Origin: Bolinopsis microptera
Lineage: Eukaryota > Ctenophora > Tentaculata > Lobata > Bolinopsidae
Length of the DNA stretch: 64,000 nucleotides
Direction of reading: 5' to 3'
Assembly: GCF_026151205.1 (NCBI RefSeq)
Contig: NC_087083.1
Location: forward strand, 4,628,460-4,692,459
The translations under genes and the position numbers were made by a program. The notes under the pieces were generated by a model. That model searched no databases. It worked only from the letters and a program-made list of their open reading frames with translations, and was not told the origin of the DNA. This document shows positions 2,086 through 44,594 of this stretch, piece by piece. Position 1 is the stretch's first letter. The number at the start of each line of letters is the position of its first letter.

Positions 2086-2117
<32 letters not shown>

Positions 2118-24900: not shown

Positions 24901-27900
24901 GCCCAGAGTAGGACGATTTGTCCTAACTGCAGATTTCATCTAACCGTTGTGCAATGGAAAGACTCCGCCCGGAGGAAAACCCTAAAAGATCGGTTTTAAC
25001 CTCGACATCAGGTAAGTATGCTTGTAAATGTTCAAAATGAGGATATATTTTCAATACAAAATGTTTCCTTGTGTTTGAAATATGATATTTAAATGGTCAT
25101 ATTTTATCTTAGTTTGATGACCTACAACCTCCACCCACAAAATAAGAGCTGATTTAAAATATCACTAGAAGACGCGTCAAACCAAATTTAATGTTTTTGA
25201 CATAAACATCATCAAATTATTCACAAATTGAGGAAATTTATATTTGATCTTGAAAATCTTGGACCTGGTTTTTATGTAAAATATATGTTCATTCCAATGA
25301 GACAAATCTGTGGATCCTCTAAAGACACTTTCTGGGGAAAGTATTACAATGTAATAGGTATCAATAGGTAAAATCGTATCATTCCCATATATACAATATT
25401 GTACATACTTACATATTATTATTACCCACATACAATATATACATACTTACATATTACACATTATACAATATACATACTTACATGATACATGGGACTTATT
25501 AAAATGAAACATGTTCTGTATCCAAACAAGTCACCCCAATAAAACGAACCTGAGGATCCTCAAAAGACACCCCCGACCGGTAAAAGAGACGTTGTTTCCC
25601 CTTAGCCACCAGCAACCAAACACTTGTCTCATCCACAGCTACAGTCAGCGCTTCTAACATCATTTCGCTCCAATCGGTTCCTTGGGGCTGGCCGTATTCT
25701 ATTCCAAACCTGAGGAGATGATGTTACATTGTCATGACAGTATTGTTACATGTTACATGTGACATGTGACATGTTGTATCTCTGTTATCAGACCAGTAGG
25801 AGAGATGATCTGTACCCAATTCAAGGAATGTTTTTATACACAGAGTGATTGGTTTTCTTTAGACATAAGTAAATATATGTCGTATTTCATGACATATGTT
25901 GTCTCGTCAATTACAATCAATAGATTTCAATCCAATAAATGAGCTGCTCCCTCATCTTATATCTGCTAACCTAACAACAGCCCGCTTGTTAGTAGTAACA
26001 CCCCAGTCCCCACACTCACCTAACAACAGCCCACTTGTTAGTAGTAACACCCCACACTCACCTAACAACAGCCCGCTTGTTAGCAGTAACACCCCACACT
26101 CACCTAACAAGATCCCGCTTGTTAGTAGTAACACCCCACACTCACCTAACAACAGCCCGCTTGTTAGTAGTAACACCCCACACTCACCTAACAACTTAAC
26201 AAGATCCCGCTTGTTAGTAGTAACACCCCACACTCACCTAACAACAGCCCGCTTGTTAGTAGTAACACCCCACACTCACCTAACAACAGCCCGCTTGTTA
26301 GTAGTAACACCCCACACCACATTCCCCGAATCCGACACACTCAGCGACACTAGTTTGGCTCCAGAGACGCGGTCCCAGGAGAGGGGGTTGCCCCTAGTGT
26401 TGGGGGAGTAGTACACGTTCCCCCAGTTATCGGTACACCATACTGACACGTTGGAAACTGCCAGGCAGGATATAGTCACGTACATACGCGACATGGTCGG
26501 ACCTGTGGGGTTTTATCATGTAATTAATCAAATAATTGATTAGATTAGATTATCAATTTATTGAATTATATTAATAAACTCTTATTTTCATTATAATATA
26601 TGCCATTTAAATGACTAATTTTGGCCTCATTGCCTTTTTCATCGTTTTTAATGTTTTTTATCCTACCTCTAAGTTGAAGCCAACTATCATCAGTTAAAAA
26701 CACACTATCCTACCTCTGAGTTCAAGCCAACTATCATCAGTTAAAAACACACTATCCTACCTCTTAGTTCAAGCCAACTATCATCAGTTAAAAACACACT
26801 ATCCTACCCCTTAGTTCAAGCCAACTATCATCAGTTAAAAACACACTATCCTACCTCTGAGTTCAAGCCAACTATCATCAGTTAAAAACACACTATCCTA
26901 CCCCTTAGTTCAAGCCAACTATCATCAGTTAAAAACACACTATCCTACCTCTTAGTTCAAGCCAACTATCATCAGTTAAAAACACACTATCCTACCTCTT
27001 AGTTCAAGCCAACTATCATCAGTTAAAAACACACTATCCTACCTCTTAGTTCAAGCCAACTATCATCAGTTAAAAACACACTATCCTACCTCTTAGTTCA
27101 AGCCAACTATCATGATCAGTTAAAAACACACTATCCTACCTCTTAGTTCAAGCCAACTATCATGATCAGTTAAAAACACACTATCCTACCTCTTAGTTCA
27201 AGCCAACTATCATGATCAGTTAAAAACACACTATCCTACCTCTTAGTTCAAGCCAACTATCATCAGTTAAAAACACACTATCCTACCCCTTAGTTCAAGC
27301 CAACTATCATCAGTTAAAAACACACTATCCTACCTCTTAGTTCAAGCCAACTATCATCAGTTAAAAACACACTATCCTACCTCTTAGTTCAAGCCAACTA
27401 TCATCAGTTAAAAACACACTATCCTACCTCTTAGTTCAAGCCAACTATCATCAGTTAAAAACACACTATCCTACCTCTTAGTTCAAGCCAACTATCATCA
27501 GTTAAAAACACACTATCCTACCTCTTAGTTCAAGCCAACTATCATCAGTTAAAAACACACTATCCTACCTCTTAGTTCAAGCCAACTATCATCAGTTAAA
27601 TACACACTATCCTACCTCTTAGTTCAAGCCAACTATCATCAGTTAAAAACACACTATCCTACCCCTTAGTTCAAGCCAACTATCATCAGTTAAAAACACA
27701 CTATCCTACCTCTAGGTTCAAGCCAACTATCATCAGTTAAAAACACACTATCCTACCTCTGAGTTCAAGCCAACTATCATCAGTTAAAAACACACTATCC
27801 TACCCCTTAGTTCAAGCCAACTATCATCAGTTAAAAACACACTATCCTACCTCTGAGTTCAAGCCAACTATCATCAGTTAAAAACACACTATCCTACCTC

Positions 27901-30900
27901 TGAGTTCAAGCCAACTATCATCAGTTAAAAACACACTATCCTACCTCTGAGTTCAAGCCAACTATCATCAGTTAAAAACACACTATCCTCTCTACCACCA
28001 CTCTTCTCCCCCAGTAAGAGGGGTGAGGGTACAGTGAGTTGGTGCGGGGGTGGGGAGGCGGCAGCCTCGGTTGTCAGGGGGTCTTCACCGAACTCTACTG
28101 AGGGTCTTCTTTCTAGATCGTCTGAGAAGGAAGGGGTTATTGTGAATTGTAGATATATTTAAATATTAGTTAAGTTATATGGTTATTAGTTAAGTTACAT
28201 ATACTAGCAGGAACCCGTCTAAGTGTAACCCTAAAGTGGCGTCAAGACTCAAGAGACTTATCTCTTATTCTTATTCCTTGGCCTATTTTTTTATTTTTTC
28301 ATGCTGATTTAAAGACCATTAAAGCATTTGAACCAGTCAAAAAGTTTAAGTTGTATATCTTTTACGGTTTTTGCGGAAAGTCGTGTTAAAGTTGATGCCG
28401 TGGTTTCAGTAAAATGGTACGGATATATCGTCTCGCTTTATATAGTAAGATATTGAATTATAGATATAGTTGAACATATCTTTAAAGTAGGCCTAAATTA
28501 CTTGATGTTGTACATAAAGGCATTTATAAAATGCCGATCTTTAAATCGTTGCCTAACACATCCTCTGTTGAATCGTTTAGCTATCTATATTAATATGAAA
28601 ATAAATGCGGCATTTAGGAAATGCCGAAATCATAGACATTTATTAGGACGCAATGAAACTATCGGACGATGTATGGGGACTTGCCACCCCCTGGCAACAT
28701 TAAAATATATCGACTCTGTTATATAGTTTAGTCTAGACTCTATGACACCATAACTACTTAAAACTTACATAAATCAGCAGTTGACTCTGAAGCTGAACGG
28801 GTCGAGTAGATATCGCTGGTATCTCCGTCGTAACTCTGTTGGTGCTTCCTTCTGTGGTCCAATTATAATTACATAATTAATTATAATTAGATAATTAATT
28901 AGATTGTTTTTAAAAATACTGTTAAGTTTGAATGGTAACAACTAACAAGGTTAAACTTACATTTCTGATCAAGACAGCTGAAGAATAAGAATATCATAAA
29001 AAAGGAAAGTTAAAACCAGCAACCTATCTGAGGAGGAGATCTTATGATCGACACCCTTATGCTGGGTATCAAATCTCTGCTGACTATGTTCAGATGTGGA
29101 GATATTATCCGAGATATTGGAAGATAGATCCCCGTCTAGGATTGTTGAGGAGGAGGTACGAACTGAGGATTTGTCATCTTGATCGTTGGTATCCCCGATC
29201 TGTGGAGAACAGTTAATTTGATTAATTAATTAATTTTTATGATCTTGCACTAAAATTTAATACTCAGAATTCGTAATATAGAAACAACTACAATTGCTAA
29301 TGAAGGTTCAAGAATTTAAACATGATTCAGGAAATGAAACGTGAAGGGTATGATACTGTTATCAGCTCAGTTTGTACTACACACCTCTTCATCACTATCA
29401 ACATCTTCTTCCCCGTCAGAGTAGGGGTCATCAAACTCGTACACAGGCAGTCCCAGATCGTCTAGTCTCAGTATACCCTCCTCTAGGTTAGCAAGTCCAA
29501 TTAGTATCGAGCTCACGTCCAGGCCTGGGGTGACATTTCTTTAAATTCTTCAAATTCTTTAAATTCTTTAAATTCTTCAAATTCTTTAAATTCTTTAAAT
29601 TCTTTAAATTCTTTAAATTCTTTAAATTCTTTAAATTCTTTAAATTCTTTAAATTCTTTGAAATCTTTAAATTATGCATAAGTAGTCCTTAAAAATTGGG
29701 TCCAAATTTGGTGACCGAAAAAACGATTGTTATCCGTATTCGAATTCTGATCCGAATTTAACATGGCATCGAAGAATTGATCATCAACTCTAGAAAGATA
29801 CAAAGCTTGCAATAGATTCTTGTGATAGAGTTATAACAGTAATTTAAATCACATTTAGCCATTCCTAATTGCCCATTAACCCCATTTATTGAGGGATGCG
29901 ATCAATAAATGCGGTCACGTTTCTTTTGTGGGTGGCGGCTAAATTTCCCGATCCGCAGCACTTTATCTAATTTATCCAATTCATTTTCATTTCTCAGTCT
30001 CTCTATGCAAGTTCTAATAACTTTGCAAATATTACCACTATTCTGACCGTCAATAAGCCATAGACTGGGAAACAATATGTTACTGACTGTAAATATGAAG
30101 GATCTCCAAAATACAGTGGAACTTTACACAAATCTAGAATAGTTACCTACGAAGAACATCCCAAAGATCTGATAAGTGAACACGAAAGTACGGTGGAACT
30201 GCTAATTACTGTTAAACAGAGCGACGAATAATGTAAAACATAAACTACATTGCAATTAAAACTAAAACTTTCACAAATTTCTCTGCATTAAGGCGGTTTG
30301 GGTTTAGGTAAAACTACTGTTACTTTCCATCACGTACGAACCGCTGTACGTGTCCAGATTAGATCAAGTTCTTGCGACAAGATTTAATTATATTATATAT
30401 AAAATATAATCATGAATAATATGTTATCGACTCAGACTCTCAGTCGTAATGCACAGAAAAGCTGAGAGGGAAAAATTCTCAGAATTCACGCACATAGAAT
30501 TCCGACTCATGCCGGCTCCGATTTATGAAAAGATACACATTGAATTTCGAAGTGGCGAACGGAATTCCGACACGGAGGCAGATATATATGATAAATTAGA
30601 GTACGTGATTTTAGTTTTTTTAAATTAGGGCCATTATTTGAACAGGACAAGCTCCGGCTTTCACTGCATAAAGATGCAACCCCCATTATACCGTGGACTT
30701 CTGGGAAAGGAAAATCTGCGGAACATCGAGTTTCGCGGTGAATCGGGGATTTGACTGTTATACGATCCAATCAATTGGTCTAGAAGATATTAAAAAATTA
30801 AATTTACTCAGCAGTGCAAAAATTTACTCATCACTATATTTATTTCATCATTCATTGCGGTCCTTTTAATAGACCAAAAAACAGTGAAGACTTGCAAGAA

Positions 30901-33900
30901 GATTGAACATATTCTATCAAATGATGACACTAAATTTAACAAGCAAATATAAAAGATCAGTCGAACTGCTCATAAATTTTTAACTAAACTAAATAAAGCA
31001 TAAATTTAACATAATTCTGAATAGGGTAATATTTAAAGCTTACAGTTACACAAGTTTCCCCACATCACGTACAAATAGTTGAGAACTGTACGTGTTTGTT
31101 CTTTTCGAGTTGTTACTACCAAACAAAATTATACATAAAATTGAATTAACACAGACATAAACTACTGAGACGGGGTATTATTTCCAGCAATCTCAGAGGA
31201 ATATTTAAATGACGTAAATGGGCCTAATAAATTCCAGAATTTGCTGTTTGGTGTTGACAACATCAGCCGAGATGCAGTACGTCAGTTAGCACTAAACCAA
31301 GTGGAATGGAGAAACCTGTTTATAACGCCGTATAAGAGATGTGTGTGAAGAAGGCCACTGACCACTCCAACGACTAGGAGGAGACTTCTTTATGTAGCAT
31401 GTATGGTATGTCCTGAAGTGCTTCACTGGGACCCTTGGTCTATGGAACTGATACTGTTGCTCTCCTCTTCAGGACCAAACCAATGGTGAACTTCCGGAAG
31501 TGATCGTTGGTGATGAAGTATATAAAAGGATTGGACCAAAAAGAAAGAAACACGACGAAAGTCACGTAGCGTAGCTTGTAGTCATTTTCGTCCCATGTAT
31601 CCGCGCTAAGCAGCATGGAGTATACACAGTATGGTAACACTGAAGTAAGGAAGGACACAGTTACCAGAACGACTACCACGATATTTTTCTTATTGACGGA
31701 GTTGGTTGTTTTCTTTACAGCGTAAATCACTAGAAAAGTGTTCATAACAATCAAAGTCAGGCAAGGTAATCCGTTTAGGAGTATATTAGTAACGTATTCA
31801 AAAATAGAATGCCATCTTCTGGTAAATGATATAGAGCGTTCCGCACAAGATGATATGACATCCACAAATTTTACGACCAAAGTACGCTCAATAAACGCTC
31901 CGTGGAGAAGTTTAAGTGGAATTATCATCGCTAAAATGATGACCATCACCGTTATAGACCATCTCTGTTTCTTGGAACAGTCTAGAAATCGTAGAGGAAA
32001 CAAACATCTCATCATTCTATTCAGGGCCAGTGCAACAATCAGGAATATATTGGCTACAACCCCCGCAAATCTGTAGATAACGTGGACCATACAGAATGTG
32101 TCACCTAAGACCCATTTCTCCGCGTGAATAGATGAGATGATTGGAATCAGGATAAGGATAGTGTTAGCGAGATCTGTAACAGCCAAGTTCTGTATGATCC
32201 AAACAGAGAGTTTGTCCAGTTTGATAGCTTTGTGGTGGATTGTTGAGTGGATAACGAAGGTGTTTCCGAGAACTCCCAGGATGAAAGATGTGTGGCACCA
32301 GACTAATGATGGAATGTAGGGGAGTGTCATCGTGGAGATTCCTATCGGAAATATATTAAACCATTGAATTTTGTATTGAGGTATCGGGGGTATTTAAGGG
32401 GTATTTAAGGGGTATTTCGGGGGTGTTTCGTTTAATGAAAGGAATTATACATTTTTACGTTGATGAATAGTACGTTGAGAGTTGAGAATATTGTGCATTT
32501 TTAACAATAACAAGAAATACTCATTCCGCTAAAATAACGCCATGATAATGTTAATTCTCATCATACGTTTCATAATCAATATTCAATATACGTATGATAA
32601 TTAAAGTATCCAACTAAGTTTTGTTTCAATAGGTTAGGTAGGTAAAACAACAACTAACTATCACTATTTCTACAAAAGCATCTACATTCTACGGGTGCTG
32701 ACTGCTATGGGGCGAGGGCTGGGGTTTAATGACCAATGACATTCCATCATAATGGTCTTTTTCAAGGAGAATTTGGGAAAATTATCTGCCTAAAACGGTT
32801 ATAAAACACCTATTATCAGTCTTCTAAATAAATGAGTGGTATTTAACTTGGTGCCAGCTGATAAAAAACAGTGTATTTTTCTTTAAAAATATAAGTTTTT
32901 TAAGCGATTTAACAAATCTTGTGGATATTTTGCGGATATTTTGCTATTAGTATTATTCGGAAGTCTCAAATATATTTTGCGGATCGAATTCTCTGAAACC
33001 ATTTTTGATCAGCCCTAAAGAATTATCATTGGAAGAAACAGACATTTTAATTTTATCATGTTTATATAGTATATACTTTGAGAGTCCTTGAAGCGGCCGG
33101 CGACCACATTTTTACGCGAATGTAGATTGTAGACCAAAAATCTGTATTATTCTCAGATAAAAGCGTAATAATAGCGCGTAAAAACTAAAAATGGTCCCGT
33201 CGACAAACCTTTTGGCGTTATTAAATATAAAAAGTTAAAGTTAAATAGTCAGACAGTCTCTGAAACACCAAACAATTGCCCTTAGTATTACGTAATCAGC
33301 CGAGGGGGGGGGGGGGGGGGGGGGTGGAGTTGGGTCTTGATTACGGTTAATTACTATAAGCTGTATTCTTATAAGCTGTATTCTTATAAGCTTATAATTA
33401 TATAAGCTGTATTATTATAAGCTGTTTTCTTATAAGCTTATAATTATATAAGCTGTATTATTATAAGCTGTATTATTATATTAGCTGTATTATTATATTA
33501 GCTGTATTATTATATTAGCTGTATTGTTATTGGCTTATAATTAACAACTTATCACAAACAATATCATCAAAACAGCAGTGGACGGATAAATATACCCACC
33601 GATCTCCTGTGGCTGCGCGTCACTCTCCTCAGTCACGTGACAAGACATCTCAGTAACTTCTACACTCTCGGCATTCTCATTAAGTTGTAAAACAGGGGAC
33701 ACATCATACTGTTGTGGAATGTTGGTAGGTAGGAACGTTGGTTCTTGGCCCTCCTCCACGATTGTTACTCCTGCTACGGAATCCAGGGTGTCGTTTGAAG
33801 AGGTCTTCTCCTTCCGTGATCCTGAGTGAAGCGTTTTAGTTTGTGGGATAGTTTGTAAATTTTAATATCTGATAAATGCAGGAAACAGATCACAAATTTA

Positions 33901-36900: not shown

Positions 36901-39900
36901 TTCGCATGATACAGAATGGCCAACACTCGACACGATATCAAGGTCGGGAACTTTCTGAAGGGGGATAATTTCAGAGTTCTCATCCCGTTCACAGATAGAT
37001 TTTACAAAATTGGTGATTTCTTCGAGTTTTTCTTTTGGAACCGGCTGGTACTTTGGGATTTGCGTTATGATTTCATTTGGTTTATGAGGATCTATTTCTT
37101 GAGTTTTATCGGCGGCTAACTGACCGTTCTCTGATTTTATATTCCCGTTTTCTGATATGATTGTAACGCTCTGAGTCTGTTCATTATGGGCTATATTACC
37201 CCCAGCTCTATCATTCTCAACATTTTCTGATATTGAACCAAATTCACTATTCGTTGAGGTAATATTTTGTGTAACAATATATCTTTTAATGATATTGTCT
37301 TTATAAAGGAGCACGAGAGCCCTGTGACTTGTGTACCAGTCCAAAACAGATTCTTTCAGCCACCCTGAAATAAGTTTCGTTATTTGAGGTACCTGGTGAA
37401 ATGTGAGCCCAGAACTAAAAGAGAAGAAAATTAGTAATACTCCTACAGGGGATTGCTTAAGTAAACTGTAATCTGTACAACATAGAAATGCTATGTCTGT
37501 GTATAAAGAAATAGCCAAAATAGCTGCCAAGATTGGACAAATTCGTTACGTCTGCTGCACTCGTGGAATCATGGATGTCACTATAATAATAAGGCGCCTA
37601 TGTAAACATTTTTGTATGGGCCATGGGGATGAACAAATTGTTTTTTGAAATCTTCATACCCTACCCTTAATGTCCAGGTGAAAAAAAATTTGTTGCCTGA
37701 GTTACAAAAACCAGCGGTAAATTTCTAAAATGAACTTGACGGTTGCTTGGCGGAAGCGGAAGTAGGTCCCATATTTTATACCCAAATTCACCGCTTTAGA
37801 ATACATTTTTCGCGAAATATACCCTCGTGCGCGCACAGAATCCATCCAAAATTCATCGCGCGTTCCATTATAACGCGTCCCACGTGACATTATTTTACCT
37901 AAATTTGACACCAGGCAATTCTTGACTACACAGGGCTGCATTAACCACTGTATCATTGTGTAGAGAGATTAATCATTGACACACACAAATCTTACCCACT
38001 ACAGTTAGATCGACTGTCTCCACGAAGACAAACAGGTGCTTGAGTTGGATTATTACCAGCTTTTCATCTATTCGTTCCACGCGGTTTATGATTCCGGATT
38101 TTGGGAGAAGGGAAGCGAGTTTGGTATCCTGAAATAGAATGGAGAAAAGGGTGTTTAGTGATTTTCTCGACGAAAATATTTTAGCATTAAACATAGATAT
38201 TTATGAGAATATTGATAGGCAGCTAAATAAAATCTGTTTAAAGATTTTAGTACTAATTGCAATATGATGAGACTCTGTAAAGTTACTAAATATTAATGAC
38301 AGTGTACGCCACTAAGCCAGTAACTATTACATTGAGTACAAGTGATCGTTTCTTTGTCATGATCTTATAGTTGGACGTCATATACTTTCAACACTACTAT
38401 ATAACAAATAATTCGAGGAAACGATGTAACAGAGTCGATATATTTTAATTTTTCATGGGGTGCCAAGTCCCCATACATCGTGGTCCGATAGTTTCATTGC
38501 GTCTTAATATAATACTTATAGCTATGCGAATTTGTACAGGCTGTTGTTTCGGCAAACAACTTGATCAGTGATCGACTGGCCGAGGGTACGATTTTATCTT
38601 GAAAATTAGGATCAACCGACGACTTAAATAGTTAAATAGATATAATAATTAAATACCTCCTTGAAATCATCGCCTTTTTACAGAAGGACAGATAAAACAC
38701 ACACTGTGACAGGAGTTAAACTAATTACTAATCGTGTTTACACACTAACCTGGGCTGAATCTTCACAGCAGCATTCCAGAGGGCACTCGTTTAATATTTT
38801 GCGCAGTTGGATAGTTTTAAGAACGTCTCCGCCGGTGTTTGCGTACCATAGGCGCAGTCCTGGGCGCGCAACGAGGACTGTGTAGATGTCTAGTACACAG
38901 GCGCCAAACTCTCCACTGAGGAGTTAATTGAAGGTTAATTGAAGGTTAATTGATGGTTAATTGATGGTTAATTGATGGTTAGTCGATTTTTCAAAGCTTT
39001 CTCCGAGAATCTAACTTCCAGTTCCTTAAATATGTCTTATGCCACCCACAGATAATCAATTTCGGAACTGGAAATTTCATATTATATATTTACTAAATAA
39101 TTAGTAATTAATTAGTAATTAATTAACTAAAATTCTAAATTACTTTTTCCGATCTTTAGATCCGACGGATGTTACAGAACAGGTTTCGTTCTCCATCTTT
39201 AATAGACTTGTCTTGATTACTGTTGTTAGCAATATGAGTCTGAAAATATAAGTGAAATTAACATAAGGGATTAACTTCTAATCGAGCTTTTTGTTAAGAA
39301 TTAAAACAATTTAATTTAATTTCAGGTGGAATAAAAATGATGGGTGTTATCATTTTGAAGTTGCAAGCTGTTTCTTTTACCTTATTTCTATATTTAGAAT
39401 ATTTTATCAGTTTTCTAACAGGGTTAATAGTAACATTAGAAACAATAAAGTACTGAAGTATAGGCTCTTTTAAATATTTGAAATATTTTCGTACTCTGCA
39501 GATATAAAGAATAGACTGAGAATCTTGTTTGGCTCGCAGTGAATAACTCTGCTAGAACTGAAAATACCCTGAAAAAGTGAGATTTGTTTGCTTGTTTTAT
39601 TGATAACTTATCAGCTTCCAGAATCAATCAATGAAGACCCAAAATCTTGTCACTTCTCAAAACATAACTTTTCACGTGTCAAAACATCAGTATTCAGATC
39701 TATAACATACCCTGGCCCAGTCGACTTCTGATATGGTTATCTTTCCATCCTTATCTACACTTGCAACTTTATTATCGTGGTAACTTGCAAATTTCACATT
39801 CGTATCATGTACTTTGCTGATCATCTGAACGCATATTATGTCAAATATTTCAAATATGTGATAAGAGACAAGAGTGTAGTGATTTATGATTGCATTTATC

Positions 39901-42900
39901 ACGATTATCTACCAGCAATAATTTAAACATTATTATATCATGTAATATATATAATGCATAAGATAACTCTTTTATTTATCATTCTGAGACACTCTCTTTA
40001 TTTAATAGCAGGCTTAAACTACTTTGTTTGGTCGACATCGACTTATTCAGTTCCACTAACTGCTACAGTTCTGAGTTTCCAACTCTTTCTGGCAATCCTT
40101 CCAGACGAAAATATAGAATTCTCGATAAAACGTCTATAACGGTAATATCATAGATTATAACATAATTCCTTTACATGAAAAATGTACATTACAGGCGAAG
40201 AATAGGATGATAAGGCTGCAGTGTCAAATTTCAATTTACCAATTCTATCATATACTTTACACACAAGTTATATTAGAAAACTAATCAGAGCAGGAGGAGT
40301 TATCAAGGCAGACAATTAATATATTGGGTAAGGTTGCGACAGAATTAACTTAGATACTATACTAATTAATTGGAATGTGGATTGTGGAATGTGATTGAAG
40401 AAATATGCCACACTCATTTCTCAGGGCAGTGATGTCATCATTAAATTGAACGACTGAAACCTTAATTGGACAACATCATAAGTAATCAGTTTGTACTATG
40501 TACTTTGTACTTTGTACTATATACTTTGTACTATGTACTATATACTTTGTACTATGTACTATATACTTTGTACTATGTACTTTGTACTTAGTACTATATA
40601 CTTTGTACAATGTACTTAGTACAATGTACATTGCCCAAGATACTGTATATAAAATGATCATATTTCCACTCGCCTGTTTAAGTTCCGTATCAGACCCTGA
40701 TTGTATCTCCTTGATACCAACATAGCCAGACTCTGTTCCCCAAACTAGCACTCTCTCCTTCAGTTCTAAACATTCTATCTTGCTGTATCCCTGAGGTAAA
40801 ATATCTTAACTAGCACTCTCTCCTTCAGTTCTAAACATTCTATCTTGCTGTATCCCTGAGGTAAAATATCTTAACTAGCACTCTCTCCTTCAGTTCTAAA
40901 CATTCTATCTTGCTGTATCCCTGAGGTAAAATATCTTAACTAGCACTCTCTCCTTCAGTTCTAAACATTCTATCTTGCTGTATCCCTGAGGTAAAATATC
41001 TTAACTAGCACTCTCTCTCCTTCAGTTCTAAACATTCTATCTTGCTGTATCCCTGAGGTAAAATATCTTAACTAGCACTCTCTCCTTCAGTTCTAAACAT
41101 TCTATCTTGCTGTATCCCTGAGGTAAAATATCTTAACTAGCACTCTCTCTCCTTCAGTTCTAAACATTCTATCTTGCTGTATCCCTGAGGTAAAATATCT
41201 TAACTAGCACTCTCTCCTTCAGTTCTAAACATTCTATCTTGCTGTATCCCTGAGGTAAAATATCTTAACTAGCACTCTCTCCTTCAGTTCTAAACATTCT
41301 ATCTTGCTGTATCCCTGAGGTAAAATATCTTAACTAGCACTCTCTCTCCTTCAGTTCTAAACATTCTATCTTGCTGTATCCCTGAGGTAAAATATCTTAA
41401 CTAGCACTCTCTCCTTCAGTTCTAAACATTCTATCTTGCTGTATCCCTGAGGTAAAATATCTTAACTAGCACTCTCTCTCCTTCAGTTCTAAACATTCTA
41501 TCTTGCTGTATCCCTGAGGTAAAATATCTTAACTAGCACTCTCTCCTTCAGTTCTAAACATTCTATCTTGCTGTATCCCTGAGGTAAAATATCTTAACTA
41601 GCACTCTCTCCTTCAGTTCTAAACATTCTATCTTGCTGTATCCCTGAGGTAAAATATCTTAACTAGCACTCTCTCCTTCAGTTCTAAACATTCTATCTTG
41701 CTGTATCCCTGAGGTAAAATATCTTAACTAGCACTCTCTCCTTCAGTTCTAAACATTCTATCTTGCTGTATCCCTGAGGTAAAATATCTTAACTAGCACT
41801 CTCTCCTTCAGTTCTAAACATTCTATCTTGCTGTATCCCTGAGGTAAAATATCTTAACTAGCACTCTCTCCTTCAGTTCTAAACATTCTATCTTGCTGTA
41901 TCCCTGAGGTAAAATATCTTAACTAGCACTCTCTCCTTCAGTTCTAAACATTCTATCTTGCTGTATCCCTGAGGTAAAATATCTTAACTAGCACTCTCTC
42001 TCCTTCAGTTCTAAACATTCTATCTTGCTGTATCCCTGAGGTAAAATATCTTAACTAGCACTCTCTCCTTCAGTTCTAAACATTCTATCTTGCTGTATCC
42101 CTGAGGTAAAATATCTTAAGGCCAGAGGGGGGGGTAAGGGGTCAAAAAATTCTACCAAAATATTATTTTCTAAATCGATTTAATTTTGAATGACAAAAAC
42201 ATTGCCGATATTCACATATTTTTAGCTGATTAACTTTATTTTATAATTGAGGTTAACCGATTTTCACAAAATTGACTATACAACATTGAGGTTAATAAAA
42301 TTGAGGTTAATATTTTATTACACGCCATAATTTTTTGTTATTTCGGTCAGCAAATGTAAACTCTAAATTTTAGGTTCATAATTATCAGAAAAAGTAATAT
42401 CCCAACGTGATTAAATGAGGTTAACCTCGTCTTTTAGATATAGCGAGAATAGATCAAATGATAGAGTTACTATTTTCATCGTAAGTTTACGGTATACACA
42501 TTTCTAAATAGATGACGTGTCGATTGACTTTCTTTTATCTTGGGAAAATTAAAAAAATGAGGTTAACCATCACAATTTGGTACCGTAGGGAATATACATA
42601 CGATTCTTACTTATGTAATGTACCACAATATCGAAGTGAGGTATCTATTGGTATCACAATGCCTACAACTATAATCACGTGACAAAGGTGATTTGAACTG
42701 ACCATATTTTAGTAGAAGATTTTACCCGTAAATGGCTAAAAAATGAGGTTAACCTCTCATTTTTTAAATATCTGACCAGTCAATTACATGTTAACCTCAA
42801 AAACTTAATCGTTATACTGTGCAAATGTTTTACTACATATATAATAACATATTGATAAACCAATCCCACTATTATATGGTCTAAAGCGAGGTTAACAACC

Positions 42901-44594
42901 AAATTTTAAGCAGTTAGTGTTTACAGGAAGTCTTGGTTAACCTCATTTTTAACAATACAAGGACATTAACTACTGAAAGTGGCTAAAATCATTTAGGGGA
43001 CGGCCAGGTCTGATCAAGCAAACGTTATTAAGTGTATAAAAAGTCCTAACTAACGAACTGTGATACATTCCAGTGAATATTCAAAATTTTGAAAACACTA
43101 AATTGCATCTATCTCAAAACACATTTTTTGACCTTTCGATTCCTTAGTTGAGAAAACTGGCCACTCCCTGATCTTGAGATTTGGTACAGTGGTTCCTTGG
43201 ACAACTATCTAGATATCTGGTGCAGCGATTTTTTTTATTTGACTCAGTTCTCGAATTATGAGGTTAACCAATTAAATTTTTCGAATTTTTGACCTGGTTA
43301 ACCTCATAATTTGAGAACAGAGTCAAATAAAAAAAATCGCTGCACCAGATGTGAGGATAATTGTCCAAGGAACCACTGTACCAAACCTCAAGATCAGGGA
43401 TTGGCCGGTTTTCTCAACTAAGGAATCGAAAGGTCAAAAAAGTTACAGCCGTTTAAAGTTCCAGTTTAACATGTAATTACAGGTAAACCTCAAAATTGAG
43501 CGCGCGATATCTCAGAAGCGCAAGGTCAGATTTTGATCCGGTTTTTTTCTTTTTGTTCGTCTTCAGTAGCTATTATCAAATATGCAAAAACTACAAAAGT
43601 GCCATTTACCCCCCCCTCTGGCCTTAACTAGCACTCTCTCTCTCCTTCAGTTCTAAACATTCTATCTTGCTGTATCCCTGAGGTAAAATATCTTAACTAG
43701 CACTCTCTCCTTCAGTTCTAAACATTCTATCTTGCTGTATCCCTGAGGTAAAATATCTTAACTAGCACTCTCTCCTTCAGTTCTAAACATTCTATCTTGC
43801 TGTATCCCTGAGGTAAAATATCTTAACTAGCACTCTCTCCTTCAGTTCTAAACATTCTATCTTGCTGTATCCCTGAGGTAAAATATCTTAACTAGCACTC
43901 TCTCCTTCAGTTCTAAACATTCTATCTTGCTGTATCCCTGAGGTAAAATATCTTAACTAGCACTCTCTCCTTCAGTTCTAAACATTCTATCTTGCTGTAT
44001 CCCTGAGGTAAAATATCTTAACTAGCACTCTCTCTCCTTCAGTTCTAAACATTCTATCTTGCTGTATCCCTGAGGTAAAATATCTTAACTAGCACTCTCT
44101 CTCCTTCAGTTCTAAACATTCTATCTTGCTGTATCCCTGAGGTAAAATATCTTAACTAGCACTCTCTCCTTCAGTTCTAAACATTCTATCTTGCTGTATC
44201 CCTGAGGTAAAATATCTTAACTAGCACTCTCTCTCCTTCAGTTCTAAACATTCTATCTTGCTGTATCCCTGAGGTAAAATATCTTAACTAGCACTCTCTC
44301 CTTCAGTTCTAAACATTCTATCTTGCTGTATCCCTGAGGTAAAATATCTTAACTAGCACTCTCTCCTTCAGTTCTAAACATTCTATCTTGCTGTATCCCA
44401 GGATAAACGTCACGTGATAAGCTGATAATATTATTATAACAGCAAAATGTACTTTTAGTATTCATAGTTCATACCTGTGGAGGAATTCTAAAGCTGACAT
44501 TACTTTTGTCATTGTAACATATCAAAACACCGACTTCAGTTCCTATTACCAGCCAATCTTCATCATAACCGACTAAAGTGTACTGTAGAGGTAC
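9024..44594 (-). CDS. TECPR2: TECPR2 orthologue (tectonin beta-propeller repeat protein), multi-exon gene
   Basis: TECPR2 is a cytosolic scaffold that links the early secretory pathway to autophagy through ATG8/LC3 proteins. Exons read by eye, in transcript order: 44594-44475, 40790-40674, 39824-39711, possibly 39557-39517, 39239-39144, 38915-38750, 38128-37996, 37414-36305, 34560-34428, 34080-33969, 33821-33600, 29524-29385, 29199-29024, 28851-28769, 28121-27945, 26502-26280, 25709-25550, 24563-24363, 23414-23320 and 9998-9024. The order WD40-like repeats, polar basic middle region, tectonin repeats and terminal WEVV matches the family, and RPGLRLW in exon 38915-38750 is a strong family match. 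From exon 37414-36305 to 23414-23320 every phase agrees. Three junctions are off by one base: the optional exon into 39239, 38128 into 37414, and 23414 into the last exon. These may be sequence errors or missed micro-exons. The first coding exon is uncertain; 54929-54862 is a candidate. Confidence 0.85.
10020..11346. other. Intron sequence, no gene seen
   Basis: This is the start of the very long last TECPR2 intron, filled with repeats. About five copies of CCGATTTACCGC lie at 10935-11070, and a diverged dispersed repeat at 10706-10860 is shared with 54999-55150. Confidence 0.5.
10935..11070. repeat. Short tandem/dispersed motif CCGATTTACCGC
   Basis: The motif recurs about five times with spacers of varying length. 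No function is apparent. Confidence 0.6.
11820..11912. repeat. Hairpin within foldback element
   Basis: GCTTCCGAAAATATT and AATATTTTCGGAAGC face each other about 40 bp apart, with GGAGCA / TGCTCC outside them. The same hairpin recurs in copy B near 21574-21666. Confidence 0.65.
12583..14918. repeat. GA-rich satellite with 600-bp higher-order period
   Basis: About 2.3 kb of almost pure purine built from GAGGAGGA, GACTGAGGA and GATGGCTGAGGA words. Longer blocks recur; the stretch at 13441 matches that at 14041, a 600-bp period. The serine/proline-rich frame on the opposite strand is a by-product of the repeat, not a gene. Confidence 0.9.
15082..15201. repeat. 10-bp tandem repeat TGTCCGCCTA
   Basis: About a dozen copies of TGTCCGYNTA adjoin the right end of the G-tipped element. 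Confidence 0.85.
16154..17365 (+). CDS. LINE ORF1: coiled coil plus SGNH-hydrolase (esterase) domain
   Basis: About 404 residues from the first ATG. The frame is open further upstream to the insertion junction, so the true N-terminus may be lost. The N-terminal half is heptad-rich and probably coiled coil. The C-terminal half has SGNH landmarks: TDS near residue 217 (in place of GDS), GIND near 272 and DNLH near 371, supplying the Ser, Asn and Asp-His positions. Esterase domains in CR1-type ORF1 proteins are established; the role in retrotransposition is unclear. Confidence 0.8.
   Translation: MKDDIASVRNAQKCVENSLKHVVDSIVSVKANVATLQEATKQQTQKEISPHPTSNTDVLDAISDLKSAVSDCNNRIDNLSKTNVFTQTIKECNGKIDDLVENINGTKDDLQSMRKILNDLSQNGVDIMKKSVEDMGSYYNSVFCDETREHIKDIHAYVTHQMCEVAIQTDPLIKEIAALGDQPNLASPSPKFGFPDPIKPSLKVLVESGQPINVWLVTDSIMRHIDESCLEFRKYRLNFKRIDFTCSESLTGEYMMGSKIPTEKPQLIYVHLGINDIHKGEDITKIIDNFKIFNEMLELVSPTTRLVISCPLLNGNTYQNRHVFSLRRSLSLLVNQQQDEDPKTKRIFLQRNDKFFINTQSTSKQNLMYFRDNLHLSERGMHAITNTMRDTLDKIFREFELPV
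17416..21177 (+). CDS. LINE ORF2: endonuclease and reverse transcriptase, intact
   Basis: This 1253-residue frame is uninterrupted. The apurinic-type endonuclease fills the first ~270 residues (SWNIQS, QEIRQP, GDFNSR near 150, SDHKPL near 270). The reverse transcriptase follows: GDKDNPDNYRAV near 575, DFRKAFDSV near 655, GTEQGHPLSP near 715 and WADD near 751 as the catalytic YADD-equivalent. A C-terminal CSWC...HFLNHC cluster near 1145-1165 resembles a zinc knuckle. It would nick target DNA and copy LINE RNA there. Confidence 0.93.
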   Translation: MNLQSKIISWNIQSTNTTFGSKFDDPQFCAVFDKFPIVCLQEIRQPVKHSGYRSFNKTRRDKKHGGVCIMVQNEISKGVKLEKSTIEDVVACKLDKNYFGVDNDIFIVNSYIKPANTSSKNSNISGFDTIRELDQFLNVLLSKGDVITCGDFNSRIGHDIDFIKEDKCGYESFIPLPEDYTPQELPTRNSKDKKSNNYKRPFLEMLVNNELHILNGRTLGDSYGDFTCIQTSGASVVDYFIISPNCSKYLSHMTIQPFTCFSDHKPLLLALNFSPSNTLVNTKALHETYARAPLRYKITPDSLSSLRDTMVDPLVEECSKSLLETDYPEDLLGTYKLNEDITVHLNKIADKCLQKTKHPKITKKGSINKQPWFTQATREAKISCTRAAQIVSDFPNSDYLRKNFYQVKNTYKSLIDRTKNKYLDKLNTDIESGKILNWKQFKKLKKFKGRVDKFDCHDMDNFQKFFGKLYANAHSTITVENKEEMLQNAEAINNNFQPSPAQSILNGQISVDEISTAISSLKNGKSSSEDMICNEILKTLSTTNTQLLCKVFNRCLDTGTYPWNNSIITPLHKKGDKDNPDNYRAVAVSSTIGKLFSTIMLNRIIKFKNEYNPDPINQLGFAKGAQTYDHILTLNTITSKYKKLKVPVYAVFVDFRKAFDSVCREALFLKLAKLGITGKTFNVLKHMYKNSTGQIKLSGFVSEKFDINKGTEQGHPLSPDLFKIYIRDLSPRLEYDNCPKLMNQLISHLLWADDLILLALDPKTLQKQLDALNNFCLEWGVEINADKTKLMKFNARFDTYQPVPLKIGDHLLEEVESYCYLGIEIHKSGTFTNARTELKKKAMRALHAMKSSVNKSKLSFRSITTLFDGLIKPIVLYGAPIYTPNMAIIKHITKQVDLNMDADTKTKFQTSILKKISLLNSEKVHLHFLKWSLGVNRKASNAGVWGESGRYPLIYECINLTLKYSQRLKNLKDNSLVSLAFKEQMNMKLDWYRGLEPLLALDPCFSTDHVTAYRTLKNNHSKLLFERNPSIAKPPKEDFLIHNGFKKRIPPQSTQPIGSKIFTPHVITKTLKCNFREYWGSCINTSRKLEFYRDLKSKFNKEYYLDSVIKYADRANITRLRISAHRLEIELGRYNQTPRDERICSWCNIVLGSGIIENEDHFLNHCDLNAASRRKVLDKIQSLISNPIKPSATSYSVHNVIPGANVLKFISNNSEIIELITNESQVHLTRVVARFATTCFNNRKKFVDSLAST
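21414..21460 (+). repeat. LINE 3' tail, (TTGTATTCC)n
   Basis: About five tandem 9-mers end the LINE and adjoin the resumed host repeat. Confidence 0.85.
21863..23001. repeat. 1.1-kb palindrome (foldback arms)
   Basis: The left arm runs from ATCTCGTTAGCTTTTCG to about 22380. The right arm runs from about 22465 to CGAAAAGCTAACGAGAT. They are near-identical inverses with a few indels around a loop of about 84 bp. The loop has the opposite orientation to that in copy A. Confidence 0.9.
23002..23319. other. Intron sequence, nothing recognised
   Basis: No coding region or clear repeat was seen between the foldback element and the next TECPR2 exon. Confidence 0.4.
23320..23414 (-). CDS. TECPR2: TECPR2 exon: tectonin repeat
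   Basis: It encodes a repeat with WVVDSAG, HFQCG and a tryptophan pair, the tectonin pattern. The acceptor is TATTATCCAG and the donor CAG|GTATGT. It begins in phase 0, agreeing with the preceding exon. It leaves two bases, which do not fit the last exon as drawn. Confidence 0.7.
24363..24563 (-). CDS. TECPR2: TECPR2 exon: tectonin repeat
   Basis: 67 codons with WVPVS, VVWGVLDSGKL, RHGITPAQPLGNSW and a closing SWE. The acceptor is TCTCCTCCCAG and the donor GGAG|GTGAGG. Both ends are phase 0. Confidence 0.82.
24608..24676. repeat. Dispersed repeat shared with 45.7 kb
   Basis: A stretch around GAGTTGGACTCGTCGACGG recurs in inverse orientation near 45685-45755. The family is unidentified. Confidence 0.5.
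25550..25709 (-). CDS. TECPR2: TECPR2 exon: tectonin repeat
   Basis: It encodes an EYGQPQGTDW...SVWLLVAKGKQRLFYRSGV pattern typical of tectonin repeats. The acceptor is CATCTCCTCAG and the donor CTCAG|GTTCGT. One base completes the codon split from the previous exon, and the exon ends in phase 0. Confidence 0.8.
25969..26322. repeat. 42-bp tandem array across a TECPR2 splice donor
   Basis: About eight 42-bp units. The unit nearest the exon contains the true exon end and donor; the others repeat that exon end and donor (TTAG|GTGAGT on the minus strand) into the intron. Each unit also carries TACTAAC, the ideal branch-point sequence. Staying in the exon frame past the true donor meets TGA at once. 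Confidence 0.9.
26280..26502 (-). CDS. TECPR2: TECPR2 exon: tectonin repeat ending in the 42-bp array
   Basis: It encodes VSVWCTDNWGNVYY...SWDRVSGAKL...GNVVWGVTTNKRAVV. The acceptor is ACCCCACAG and the donor GTTAG|GTGAGT. It starts with two bases and ends with two, agreeing with both neighbours. Confidence 0.82.
26655..27990. repeat. 47-bp tandem array across a TECPR2 splice donor
   Basis: About 28 very similar 47-bp units, a few with a 3-bp insertion. On the minus strand each holds the exon end encoding SVFLTDDSWLEL and a donor, AGAG|GTAGGA. Only the copy nearest the exon (donor at 27945) is needed. Reading on in frame reaches TAA within one unit. Confidence 0.92.
27945..28121 (-). CDS. 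TECPR2: TECPR2 exon: polar linker before tectonin repeats
   Basis: It encodes a region rich in Pro, Ser, Glu and Leu ending DDSWLELR. The acceptor is CCTTCTCAG and the donor AGAG|GTAGGA. It starts with two bases and ends with one, agreeing with the exons on both sides. Its last 37 or so bases form part of the 47-bp repeat. Confidence 0.75.
28203..28453 (+). repeat. Dispersed repeat, copy 3
   Basis: It starts ACTAGCAGGAACCCGTC and ends CGTCTCGCTTTATATAG, like the copies at 7078 and 8419. Confidence 0.6.
28628..28694. repeat. Dispersed repeat shared in inverse with 38455-38520
   Basis: About 55 bp around GACGCAATGAAACTATCGG recur in inverse orientation near 38455-38515. Confidence 0.65.
28769..28851 (-). 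CDS. TECPR2: TECPR2 exon: acidic/serine linker
   Basis: It encodes RKHQQS, then GDTSDIY and a Ser/Thr-rich end, comparable to the EEDIY-Ser-rich stretch of vertebrate TECPR2. The acceptor is GGACCACAG and the donor TTTAT|GTAAGT. Phases fit both neighbours. Confidence 0.7.
29024..29199 (-). CDS. TECPR2: TECPR2 exon: polar middle region
   Basis: 58 codons rich in Asp, Ser, Thr and Gln. The acceptor is TTCTCCACAG and the donor, GATAG|GTTGCT, is weak. It begins in phase 0 and leaves two bases, matching the next exon. Confidence 0.68.
29385..29524 (-). CDS. TECPR2: TECPR2 exon: middle region with acidic cluster
   Basis: It encodes SSILIGLANLEEGI, then LPVYEFDDPYSDGEEDVDSDEE. The acceptor is TCACCCCAG and the donor GAAGAG|GTGTGT. 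Phases match both sides. A 9-bp tandem repeat begins about 10 bp outside the acceptor. Confidence 0.75.
29535..29672. repeat. 9-bp tandem repeat AAATTCTTT
   Basis: About 15 copies just upstream of a TECPR2 exon in transcript sense. On the minus strand it is AAAGAATTT, so it adds little pyrimidine tract. Confidence 0.9.
29680..31439. other. Intron sequence, no gene seen
   Basis: AT-rich sequence between a TECPR2 exon and the GPCR. No coding region or clear element was found. Confidence 0.4.
31440..32330 (-). CDS. Rhodopsin-type (class A) GPCR, intronless, nested in a TECPR2 intron
   Basis: 296 residues with seven hydrophobic segments. TM1 has GVLGN, TM2 has NLAVTD, the TM3 cysteine lies in GDTFCMV, and TM7 has SNPFIYF, the NPxxY motif. 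The DRY position is replaced by LNR (ALNRMM), and TM6 has SVLPY rather than CWxP. A cysteine in the second extracellular loop (SSCAER) can pair with TM3. The N-terminus is very short, and an in-frame stop lies some 20 codons upstream with no other ATG. The ligand is unknown. It lies between exons 33600 and 29524 on the same strand and may be a retrogene or a lineage-specific expansion. Confidence 0.9.
   Translation of the reverse strand: MTLPYIPSLVWCHTSFILGVLGNTFVIHSTIHHKAIKLDKLSVWIIQNLAVTDLANTILILIPIISSIHAEKWVLGDTFCMVHVIYRFAGVVANIFLIVALALNRMMRCLFPLRFLDCSKKQRWSITVMVIILAMIIPLKLLHGAFIERTLVVKFVDVISSCAERSISFTRRWHSIFEYVTNILLNGLPCLTLIVMNTFLVIYAVKKTTNSVNKKNIVVVVLVTVSFLTSVLPYCVYSMLLSADTWDENDYKLRYVTFVVFLSFWSNPFIYFITNDHFRKFTIGLVLKRRATVSVP
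32340..33300. other. No gene seen
   Basis: AT-rich intron sequence upstream of the GPCR; a promoter for it could lie here, but no specific element was recognised. Three GGGGTATTT-like repeats lie at 32388-32425. Confidence 0.4.
33306..33324. repeat. Poly-G tract
   Basis: A run of about 19 G inside an intron. Confidence 0.7.
33355..33538. repeat. Tandem repeat TATTATAAGCTG
   Basis: About a dozen units of 12-16 bp based on ATAAGCTGTATTATT. It lies about 60 bp from the donor of the exon ending at 33600. Confidence 0.85.
33600..33821 (-). CDS. TECPR2: TECPR2 exon: polar middle region
   Basis: It encodes SRKEKTSSNDTLDS and then a Glu/Val/Gln-rich stretch ending QPQEI. The acceptor is CACTCAG and the donor GATCG|GTGGGT. 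It starts with two bases and ends with one, in phase with both neighbours. Confidence 0.75.
33969..34080 (-). CDS. TECPR2: TECPR2 exon: basic cluster
   Basis: It encodes DKISLSSQDTISIHSSS, an acidic patch, then IAIRIKRKKHR, comparable to the KVKRKKKKK stretch of vertebrate TECPR2. The acceptor is TTATTCAG and the donor CACC|GTAAGT. Phases agree. Confidence 0.8.
34393..34411. repeat. Poly-C tract
   Basis: A run of about 19 C in an intron just beyond the donor of exon 34428. Confidence 0.7.
34428..34560 (-). CDS. TECPR2: TECPR2 exon: middle region, start duplicated in a 100-bp array
   Basis: It encodes SVMEELKTNIGKKMITS then PSPSKHKQLITSDSTLPLYE. The acceptor is CATTTCAG and the donor TATGAG|GTCAGT. 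One leading base completes the codon split from exon 36305, and the exon ends in phase 0. Confidence 0.8.
34526..35084. repeat. 100-bp tandem array across a TECPR2 splice acceptor
   Basis: Five extra copies at an exact 100-bp period (AATATTAGTC at 34621, 34721, 34821, 34921 and 35021). On the minus strand each holds CATTTCAG, the first 36 or so exon bases, then ATATT|GTAGAC. Using an upstream copy as exon reaches an in-frame TAA soon after that point. Confidence 0.93.
35085..35247. repeat. 21-bp minisatellite with TGACGTCA motifs, intronic copy
   Basis: About eight 21-bp units based on GGCTTGATGACRTCACAAG. Several hold the palindrome TGACGTCA, the consensus cAMP-response element. The same unit is found in the coding exon at 36716-36842. 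It sits within the last 100-bp unit, which resumes after it. Confidence 0.92.
35295..36219. other. Intron sequence, no gene seen
   Basis: No coding region was recognised between the 21-bp array and the large middle TECPR2 exon. Confidence 0.4.
36305..37414 (-). CDS. TECPR2: TECPR2 large middle exon: last WD40-like strand and long disordered region
   Basis: 370 codons. The start, with LTFHQVPQITKLISGWLKE and RALVLLYKDNIIKRYI, matches the end of the family's propeller; the rest is polar and low complexity. It holds a run of CDVIKPP heptapeptides (21-bp units) and an EEHTEHTDHT-type repeat (36540-36632). The acceptor has an ideal branch site (TTACTAAT) and pyrimidine tract CTTCTCTTTTAG; the donor is ACAAG|GTCAGT. 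The end fits exon 34560 in phase. The start is one base off against exon 38128. Confidence 0.82.
36540..36632. repeat. Coding repeat TGTGTGCTCTTC
   Basis: A 12-15 bp unit that encodes the His/Glu/Thr-rich EEHTEHTDHT stretch of TECPR2. Confidence 0.85.
36716..36842 (-). repeat. 21-bp coding minisatellite (CDVIKPP)
   Basis: About six units of 21 bp keep the reading frame and encode CDVIKPP. Several carry TGACGTCA. The intronic array at 35085-35247 is built from the same unit. Confidence 0.92.
37996..38128 (-). CDS. TECPR2: TECPR2 exon: WD40-like strand
   Basis: It encodes SGIINRVERIDEKLVIIQLKH and FVFVETVDLTVVG, aligning with the last propeller blades of TECPR2. The acceptor is TTCTATTTCAG and the donor GTGG|GTAAGA. 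It starts in phase 0. Confidence 0.75.
38388..38420. repeat. 33-bp repeat shared with 59858-59890
   Basis: TTTCAACACTACTATATAAC and the 13 bases after it recur with one difference near 59858, so this is part of an unidentified dispersed repeat. Confidence 0.6.
38750..38915 (-). CDS. TECPR2: TECPR2 exon: WD40-like, RPGLRLW motif
   Basis: It encodes GEFGACVLD then VARPGLRLWYANTGGDVLKTI, closely following the FGAC...ASRPGLRLWKADVHGTV segment of vertebrate TECPR2. The acceptor is TCTCCTCAG and the donor CCCAG|GTTAGT. Phases fit exons 39144 and 38128. Confidence 0.88.
38920..38984. repeat. 12-bp tandem repeat GGTTAATTGATG
   Basis: About five units beginning only a few bases outside the acceptor of exon 38915, within its polypyrimidine/branch region. 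Confidence 0.85.
39144..39239 (-). CDS. TECPR2: TECPR2 exon: WD40-like strand
   Basis: It encodes LILLTTVIKTSLLKMENETC and SVGSKDRK, matching the blade just before the RPGLRLW exon. The acceptor is TATATTTTCAG and the donor AAAAA|GTAATT. The two bases left fit the next exon. Confidence 0.78.
39517..39557 (-). CDS. TECPR2: Possible small TECPR2 exon
   Basis: It encodes SSRVIHCEPNK after an acceptor GGTATTTTCAG, filling a gap in the family alignment. No donor gives the right phase, so boundaries are unsure and it may be spurious. Confidence 0.3.
39711..39824 (-). CDS. TECPR2: TECPR2 exon: WD40-like blade
   Basis: 38 codons, including VHDTNVKFASYHDNKVASVDKD and KITISEVDW, the ITALAWSPNG...GDDKGKI blade of the family. 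The acceptor is ATGCGTTCAG and the donor CCAGG|GTATGT. Phase 0 at both ends. Confidence 0.82.
40496..40640. repeat. Tandem repeat TACTTTGTACTATG
   Basis: Units of 7-21 bp made of GTACTATGTACTTT words, lying about 35 bp beyond the donor of exon 40674. Confidence 0.88.
40674..40790 (-). CDS. TECPR2: TECPR2 exon: WD40-like blade, with GC donor
   Basis: 39 codons: KIECLELKERVLVWGTESGY and GIKEIQSGSD, matching the DDLVAVGTASGRVAVF blade. The acceptor is TTTTACCTCAG. The donor is CAG|GCGAGT, a GC-AG intron; this choice gives phase 0 with exon 39824, whereas the nearby GTGGAA does not. Its first 45 or so bases are part of the 65-bp array. Confidence 0.83.
40745..42119. repeat. 65-bp tandem array across a TECPR2 splice acceptor, block 1
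   Basis: About 20 near-identical units of 65-67 bp. On the minus strand each has TTTTACCTCAG followed by the first 45 or so exon bases. The array continues at 43624 after a 1.5-kb insertion. Using an upstream acceptor reaches an in-frame TAG within about one unit. Confidence 0.95.
42120..43623. mobile_element. TTAA-flanked inverted-repeat element (piggyBac-like, non-autonomous)
   Basis: 1504 bp with perfect 18-bp inverted ends, GGCCAGAGGGGGGGGTAA, flanked by TTAA on both sides, as for piggyBac-type insertion. It splits the 65-bp array. No transposase was seen. Inside is an imperfect palindrome at 43127-43440, and the motif GAGGTTAACC or its inverse recurs about a dozen times. Another right end of this family lies at 58430-58459. 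Confidence 0.8.
43624..44400. repeat. 65-bp tandem array, block 2
   Basis: About 12 more units, continuous with block 1 apart from the insertion. The final unit stops just before the acceptor. Confidence 0.95.
44475..44594 (-). CDS. TECPR2: TECPR2 exon: WD40-like, most N-terminal confirmed
   Basis: 40 codons: VPLQYTLVGYDEDWLVIGTE and GVLICYNDKS, matching the DTNGDYIAVGSSIGMLYLY blade. The acceptor is CATTTTCTCAG and the donor CACAG|GTATGA. Phase 0 at both ends, fitting exon 40790. Confidence 0.8.

Follow-up and report, generated by a model that had tools for sequence, protein, structure and literature searches.

The RdRp gene of potato is said to have gained introns by tandem duplication or repeat expansion. 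In amphioxus, tandem repeats across exon–intron boundaries, termed mirages, have been described in the Adh3 and globin genes, where they occur at both boundaries and vary in length; RT-PCR suggests that regular splicing there is undisturbed (PMC3087553). Variable minisatellites at exon–intron boundaries have also been reported from human duplicated genes in segmental duplications, where they can give rise to novel introns backed by transcripts (PMC2812944). In the coding tandem repeats of the human UBC gene, dual-specific AGGT sites are used both as donors and as acceptors (PMC10809524). For CNN00420 of Cryptococcus, intron gain has been related to head-to-tail duplication of segments with splice signals (PMC2395259). 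A partial search of the literature on boundary minisatellites and on intron gain by duplication returned no genome-wide survey for an invertebrate other than amphioxus among its best-ranked titles.

The four tandem arrays described here, which straddle splice junctions of one TECPR2-like gene, are real and striking, and they are of an already known, mirage-like kind. The repeat unit spans the boundary four times in this gene and once each in a voltage-gated Ca-channel gene and a dynein gene; both 5′ and 3′ boundaries are involved, array length differs between gene copies (alleles or paralogues), and the interior is homogenised while the borders diverge. The likeness to the amphioxus mirages comprises the duplication of a donor or an acceptor with exon sequence, decoy AG or GT, length variation, the homogenised interior and the diverging borders, whereas up to 32 copies are found here versus 3–6 in BflGb6, four arrays occur in one gene, and an element is inserted in one of them (PMC3087553). 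The variable boundary minisatellites of the human duplicated genes are alike, but the introns considered here are pre-existing (PMC2812944); AGGT-bounded donor units are shared with UBC, and an intron here could likewise be a multiple of the unit, but the extra units are intronic and their dual use is predicted (PMC10809524); and the head-to-tail duplication of splice signals recalls Cryptococcus, except that existing introns are lengthened instead of gained (PMC2395259).

Gene Model and Identity

The window is the whole stretch of DNA that was analysed, 64,000 nucleotides long (C12:4628460-4692459), in a genome of 264.65 Mb and 232 contigs. The TECPR2-like gene lies on its minus strand, as do all features below unless stated otherwise, and the model was assembled from splice consensus and reading frame, with the use of splice sites judged from the frame. 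It comprises 18 exons, namely E2 to E18 and a micro-exon, E7b, and leaves out the first exon(s) and any exon between E18 and the last exon; it yields an open frame of 1178 aa with zero stops, the E4–E5 link being padded with NN. Exon phases are consistent within E2–E4 and within E5–E18, but the E4–E5 link misfits, and an exon is probably missing there. The exons that matter here are E2 (44475–44594), E3 in the WD40-like part (40674–40790), whose modelled donor is GC (CAG/GCGAGT, the slash marking the junction), E8 (36305–37414), which carries in-frame 21-bp coding repeats at 36540–36636 and 36713–36842, E9 (34428–34560), E15 (27945–28121) and E16 in the tectonin repeat region (26280–26502). 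The last exon (9024–10025; ORF bounds, acceptor position approximate) encodes tectonin domains and ends in EEGWEVV and a stop. An intron of 48 nt is predicted between E7 and E7b.

The name TECPR2 was given by the initial annotation and is consistent with the human protein. The C-terminal parts, E16–E18 and the last exon, match Pfam Tectonin and Hyd_WA; the WD40-like part matches only other beta-propeller models, every one below the cut-off. A homologue search with the 1178-aa joined-exon protein gave 0 matches at E ≤ 0.001 among the 7980 scored candidates that had the most words in common with it.

Several other features lie within the bounds of this gene. A U1 snRNA gene (Rfam RF00003, 84.8 bits; 24859–25019) sits inside the E17–E18 intron and an intronless ORF of 317 aa for a Rhodopsin-family GPCR (Pfam 7tm_1, 4e-15; 31440–32393) inside the E11–E12 intron, both on the strand of the TECPR2-like gene. 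Between E18 and the last exon, two long ORFs on the plus strand (430 and 1256 aa; 16073–21177) are LINE-like, the second being reverse-transcriptase-like by eye.

Anatomy of the Junction-Straddling Arrays

The initial annotation had proposed that arrays with 42-, 47-, 100- and 65-bp units each overlap an exon edge, two of them duplicating a donor and two an acceptor, with nearly identical copies; repeat calls by Tandem Repeats Finder, set against the gene model, agree with it on all of these points. The 42-bp array (25969–26317) lies across the donor of E16, whose last exon base is 26280, and has 7 copies with TGTTAG/GTGAGT and a diverged outermost copy. The 47-bp array (26659–27989) crosses the donor of E15 (last exon base 27945) and contains 28 copies in 7 sequence variants. 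The 100-bp array (34520–35084) crosses the acceptor of E9 (first exon base 34560), with 6 acceptors including the true one, and the 65-bp array (40743–44399) crosses that of E3 (first exon base 40790), with 32 intact acceptors including the true one. The latter is one array in two parts, 40743–42119 and 43638–44399, interrupted by a roughly 1.5-kb element (42120–43630, no strand assigned) that has inverted ends GGCCAGAGGGGGGG, is flanked on each side by TTAA and, by this target, would be piggyBac-like.

Arrays and insertions make up 55% (E16), 89% (E15), 30% (E9) and 98% (E3) of the respective introns. When each array is collapsed to one unit, introns of 280, 179, 1138 and 107 nt remain, and because these collapsed lengths are still 107–1138 nt, the introns predate the arrays and were lengthened by them.

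The unit comparison that bears out the near identity of copies was made in the E3 and E15 arrays. In the E3 array, the 32 acceptor-bearing units differ only in (GA)n length, 23 of them having 65 bp, 8 having 67 and 1 having 69; in the E15 array, like copies of the 7 variants occur in runs, and the exon's own variant recurs in adjacent copies. The outermost copy of each of the four arrays differs from the interior, and in that of E3 the AG has been lost. Since the interior copies are so alike, most decoy sites equal the true sites in sequence strength. The donor units of E15, E16 and the dynein gene are bounded by AGGT, so GT...AG equals one unit, while the acceptors of E3 (AG/GG), E9 (AG/TC) and the Ca-channel gene (AG/GC) belong to units that are not AGGT-bounded. 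As regards strand skew as a possible cause, the plus strand is C-rich across the 26–28 kb and 40–42 kb stretches and not across 34–36 kb.

A 21-bp coding repeat of E8 (DVIKPPC, 36713–36842) is matched by an intronic 21-bp array 1.5 kb away (35080–35246), whose surroundings are a continuation of the 100-bp unit. It looks as if a piece of exon E8 was copied to the 100-bp junction array.

Repeats at 29535, 33355, 38920 and 40496 had been placed within about 60 bp of exons as well, and the measured distances from the edges, 13, 57, 8 and 41 bp, support this. None of the four straddles a junction: they are a 9-bp array of 15 copies near the acceptor of E12 (29537–29673), a 15/46-bp array near the donor of E11 (33348–33543), an 11-bp array near the acceptor of E6 (38923–38981) and a 14/21-bp array near the donor of E3 (40490–40633). 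The clustering is, however, not complete, for the intronic 21-bp array (35085–35246) is 525 bp from the closest edge and two 21-bp arrays lie within exon E8.

Second Gene Copy and Assembly Quality

The C-terminal half of the TECPR2-like gene, from E8 to the last exon, occurs a second time at C12:4468001-4500884, 167–175 kb away at lower coordinates; a BLAST of the 160 kb beside the window, part of which is noisy, gave no match to E2–E7b. Identity is mostly 95–100% in clean parts and 90–91% across the repeat-bearing E8. The second copy may be an allele on an uncollapsed haplotype or a true duplication. Comparison of clean sequence gives the 100-bp array 5.7 copies in the window versus 2.6 in the second copy, and the 9-bp array 15 versus 76. 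E9 of the second copy has three acceptors, and the frame is open from the last one. A synonymous CCG/CCA variant that the exon copy carries at one locus is present, at the other locus, in the outermost decoy, a placement that suggests exchange between exon and array.

The stretches of the second copy with the 42- and 47-bp arrays are homopolymer-noisy, like unpolished sequence, and their letters were excluded from the comparison. Such noise also occurs in window positions 1–5000 and in much of C12 4.575–4.628 Mb, where genes would appear broken, and it is probably due to unpolished long-read sequence. C12:4580259-4623259 is a noisy copy, in pieces and at 70–79% identity, of C12:4500118-4532007, by local duplication or as an unresolved haplotype. 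These noisy stretches, among them the parts of the second copy that hold the 42- and 47-bp arrays, and the perhaps uncollapsed status of that copy would fit the idea that the assembler collapsed or over-expanded repeats. The window and the adjoining 160 kb are without N, however, and the four window arrays sit in clean sequence with interspersed variants and an element inserted mid-array; the second copy, too, is clean over its 100-bp and 9-bp arrays, although exact copy numbers are uncertain. An assembly artefact is accordingly considered most improbable as the origin of the arrays.

Decoy Sites and In-Frame Stops

It had also been claimed that the use of a decoy site, or reading past the true one, meets an in-frame stop within about one unit. 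Stops are indeed present in all four arrays: 31 of 31 decoy acceptors of E3 reach one at 45–78 nt and 5 of 5 of E9 at 49 nt, and read-through of the true donor meets a stop after 17 nt in E15 and after 1 nt in E16, where a TGA is inherent in the GTGAGT donor in that phase. Chance suffices to account for this, since random intron sequence from the TECPR2-like gene contains a stop within one unit in 58–87% of cases and in all four jointly with a probability of about 0.23; the stops are therefore not evidence of design.

The same observations bear on whether the arrays act on expression, with the number of acceptors tuning the share of nonsense messages and the donor arrays forming a dual-use AG/GT series removed stepwise. 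The decoys of E3 do not differ from the true site, every decoy acceptor leads to an early stop, and the donor units are AGGT-bounded like the human UBC repeat, whose AGGT sites work both ways (PMC10809524). Against such a role stand the joint probability of about 0.23 with which stops in all four arise by chance and the wide difference in copy number between the two gene copies, which suggests little constraint; we regard it as improbable.

Recurrence in Other Genes

Junction-straddling arrays recur in two other genes. A voltage-gated Ca-channel gene nearby, assigned by Pfam Ion_trans and by L- and T-type channels as its best PDB matches, has a 77-bp unit in three copies with the acceptor CATTTCCAG/GCTACATTTGAGGGCTGGATGGAGGTTATG, and the last copy leads into the exon; both decoy acceptors reach a stop within about one unit by eye. 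This array was met while browsing and is hence a biased find. The dynein gene of locus L037 (C2:21034563-21037627; AAA_6, PDB matches to dynein chains), which comes from an HMM-chosen sample, carries a donor array of 62–65 bp with 12 identical copies of ATCGAG/GTTAGT. A stop follows 30 nt past the first donor, and with splicing at that donor the protein runs on properly into the following exon (LIIE/VILFSEGF). For both genes, we infer the use of the true site from such protein continuity. The last exon seen of the channel gene runs in frame into an array of about 1.1 kb with 27/87/456-bp units (C12:4557090-4558181), and it is possible that the C-terminus of the channel is extended by repeats. 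Further ORFs of this neighbourhood include some that look sulfatase-like by eye.

Excess over Chance

The null model reduced each array to one unit and gave it a uniformly random position; a single collapsed unit then straddles a junction by chance with a probability of 0.10–0.24 in the four array-bearing introns. For the four long arrays of TECPR2, 0.6–0.7 straddles are expected and 4 of 4 were seen (P about 5e-4, post hoc); for all 11 arrays of the gene, 4 straddles compare with 1.0–1.2 expected (P 0.009–0.018, post hoc). These P values are descriptive only, because the gene was picked for looking striking.

An independent sample was drawn from genes with Myosin_head (73 matches in the genome) and dynein AAA_6 (67 matches) domains, using 15 loci that hold 48 and 40 of these, respectively. 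The loci were picked by exon density, and the dynein loci are compact, so large arrays were disfavoured. The test covered 88 HMM-defined exons, 76,062 bases and 19 arrays (period ≥ 7, score ≥ 80); exon ends were approximated by the limits of the HMM matches, and the exons known were those of the two domains. The script called 2 of the 19 arrays as straddling versus 0.52 expected (P 0.075), and one call was false by eye, which leaves 1 of 19. Of the 19 arrays, 8 lay no more than 50 bp from an HMM edge, versus 3.6 expected (P about 0.01). With units of at least 20 bp (9 arrays), there was 1 straddle versus 0.54 (P 0.45), and 3 arrays lay near an edge versus 1.85 (P 0.27). It can be seen from these counts that enrichment of arrays near exon edges in the sample is suggestive, while no general excess of straddling is established, 1 of 19 being observed against about 0.5 expected.

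Three candidates for straddling were rejected on inspection. The 8-bp array in L028, the script's false call, ends about 14 bp before the acceptor; the 48-bp repeat of two copies in L027 starts at about the second base of the donor; and the 10-bp array in L035 stops at the acceptor and has no exon sequence. At L028:3550-5440, an 8-bp repeat (CAAGTAAC, about 240 copies) occupies almost an entire myosin intron.

The proposal that splice junctions are preferred birthplaces of minisatellites fares unevenly: the TECPR2 arrays speak for it post hoc (P about 5e-4), but straddling in the sample is close to chance. In its wider form, junctions would be mutational hot spots for starting or keeping tandem duplications, and TECPR2 would be the extreme of a genome-wide bias. 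The 4 of 4 long arrays of TECPR2, the 8 of 19 sample arrays near edges and the two further straddling genes, Ca-channel and dynein, all point in this direction; the sample itself shows no clear excess of straddling, however, and it is small, with approximate HMM exon ends, while TECPR2 was chosen as striking. On balance, a hot spot appears unlikely.

Proposed Mechanism

The explanation we consider probable is that these are ordinary minisatellites that lengthen introns and are tolerated as the terminal copy preserves the authentic junction, the clustering in TECPR2 being mostly chance. Near-identical copies, divergent outermost copies, length differences in the second gene copy, two other genes and near-chance straddling in the sample support this explanation; the 4 of 4 straddling in TECPR2 and the 8 of 19 sample arrays near edges run counter to it and hint at a bias that it does not need.

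An array would start with a short tandem duplication across an exon–intron junction and slippage in replication, unequal exchange or gene conversion would then expand it. A terminal copy would keep the authentic junction, leaving the protein unchanged and the intron longer, provided that the true site is used, and the decoys would be tolerated by selection. The clustering in TECPR2 would then be due to chance and to the shortness of introns in a genome rich in repeats, perhaps together with a mild bias that is regional or favours the vicinity of exons.

The two kinds of array are likely to be tolerated in different ways. In donor arrays, the last two exon bases are AG and the intron starts with GT, and each unit would form a latent GT...AG intron of 42, 47 or 62–65 nt. 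Splicing of the true donor to the AG of any later unit would restore the same junction and give the same mRNA, and retained units would be removable; tolerance of donor arrays is thus predicted because AG/GT units regenerate an identical junction whichever unit's AG is used. Introns near 42–47 nt are plausible because the gene model predicts one of 48 nt, and the 42-nt unit contains TACTAAC, the classical branch-point word, about 19 nt before its AG. AG is the usual end of an exon, and since there are in addition only three donor arrays, the AG/GT units give no statistical evidence for dual use. In acceptor arrays, the last acceptor must beat identical upstream ones, presumably via exon definition from the downstream donor, and a wrong choice would yield a nonsense message.

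Significance

A joint reading of these features, which we offer as speculation with a small chance of being right in full, is that junction-straddling minisatellites would be a widespread, splicing-neutral form of intron growth in this lineage. The donor arrays would be chains of latent 42–65-nt introns removed stepwise, the acceptor arrays would be poison sites tunable by copy number, and array–exon exchange would drag synonymous variants into coding sequence. The arrays also bear on how introns lengthen without breakage of the gene, and E3, whose 31 decoy acceptors match the real one in sequence, offers a natural experiment on how the spliceosome chooses among equal sites. That such arrays occur in three genes with no relation to one another, in a genome that is smaller than those of amphioxus and probably does not belong to one, suggests that this structure is more general than the few published cases found.
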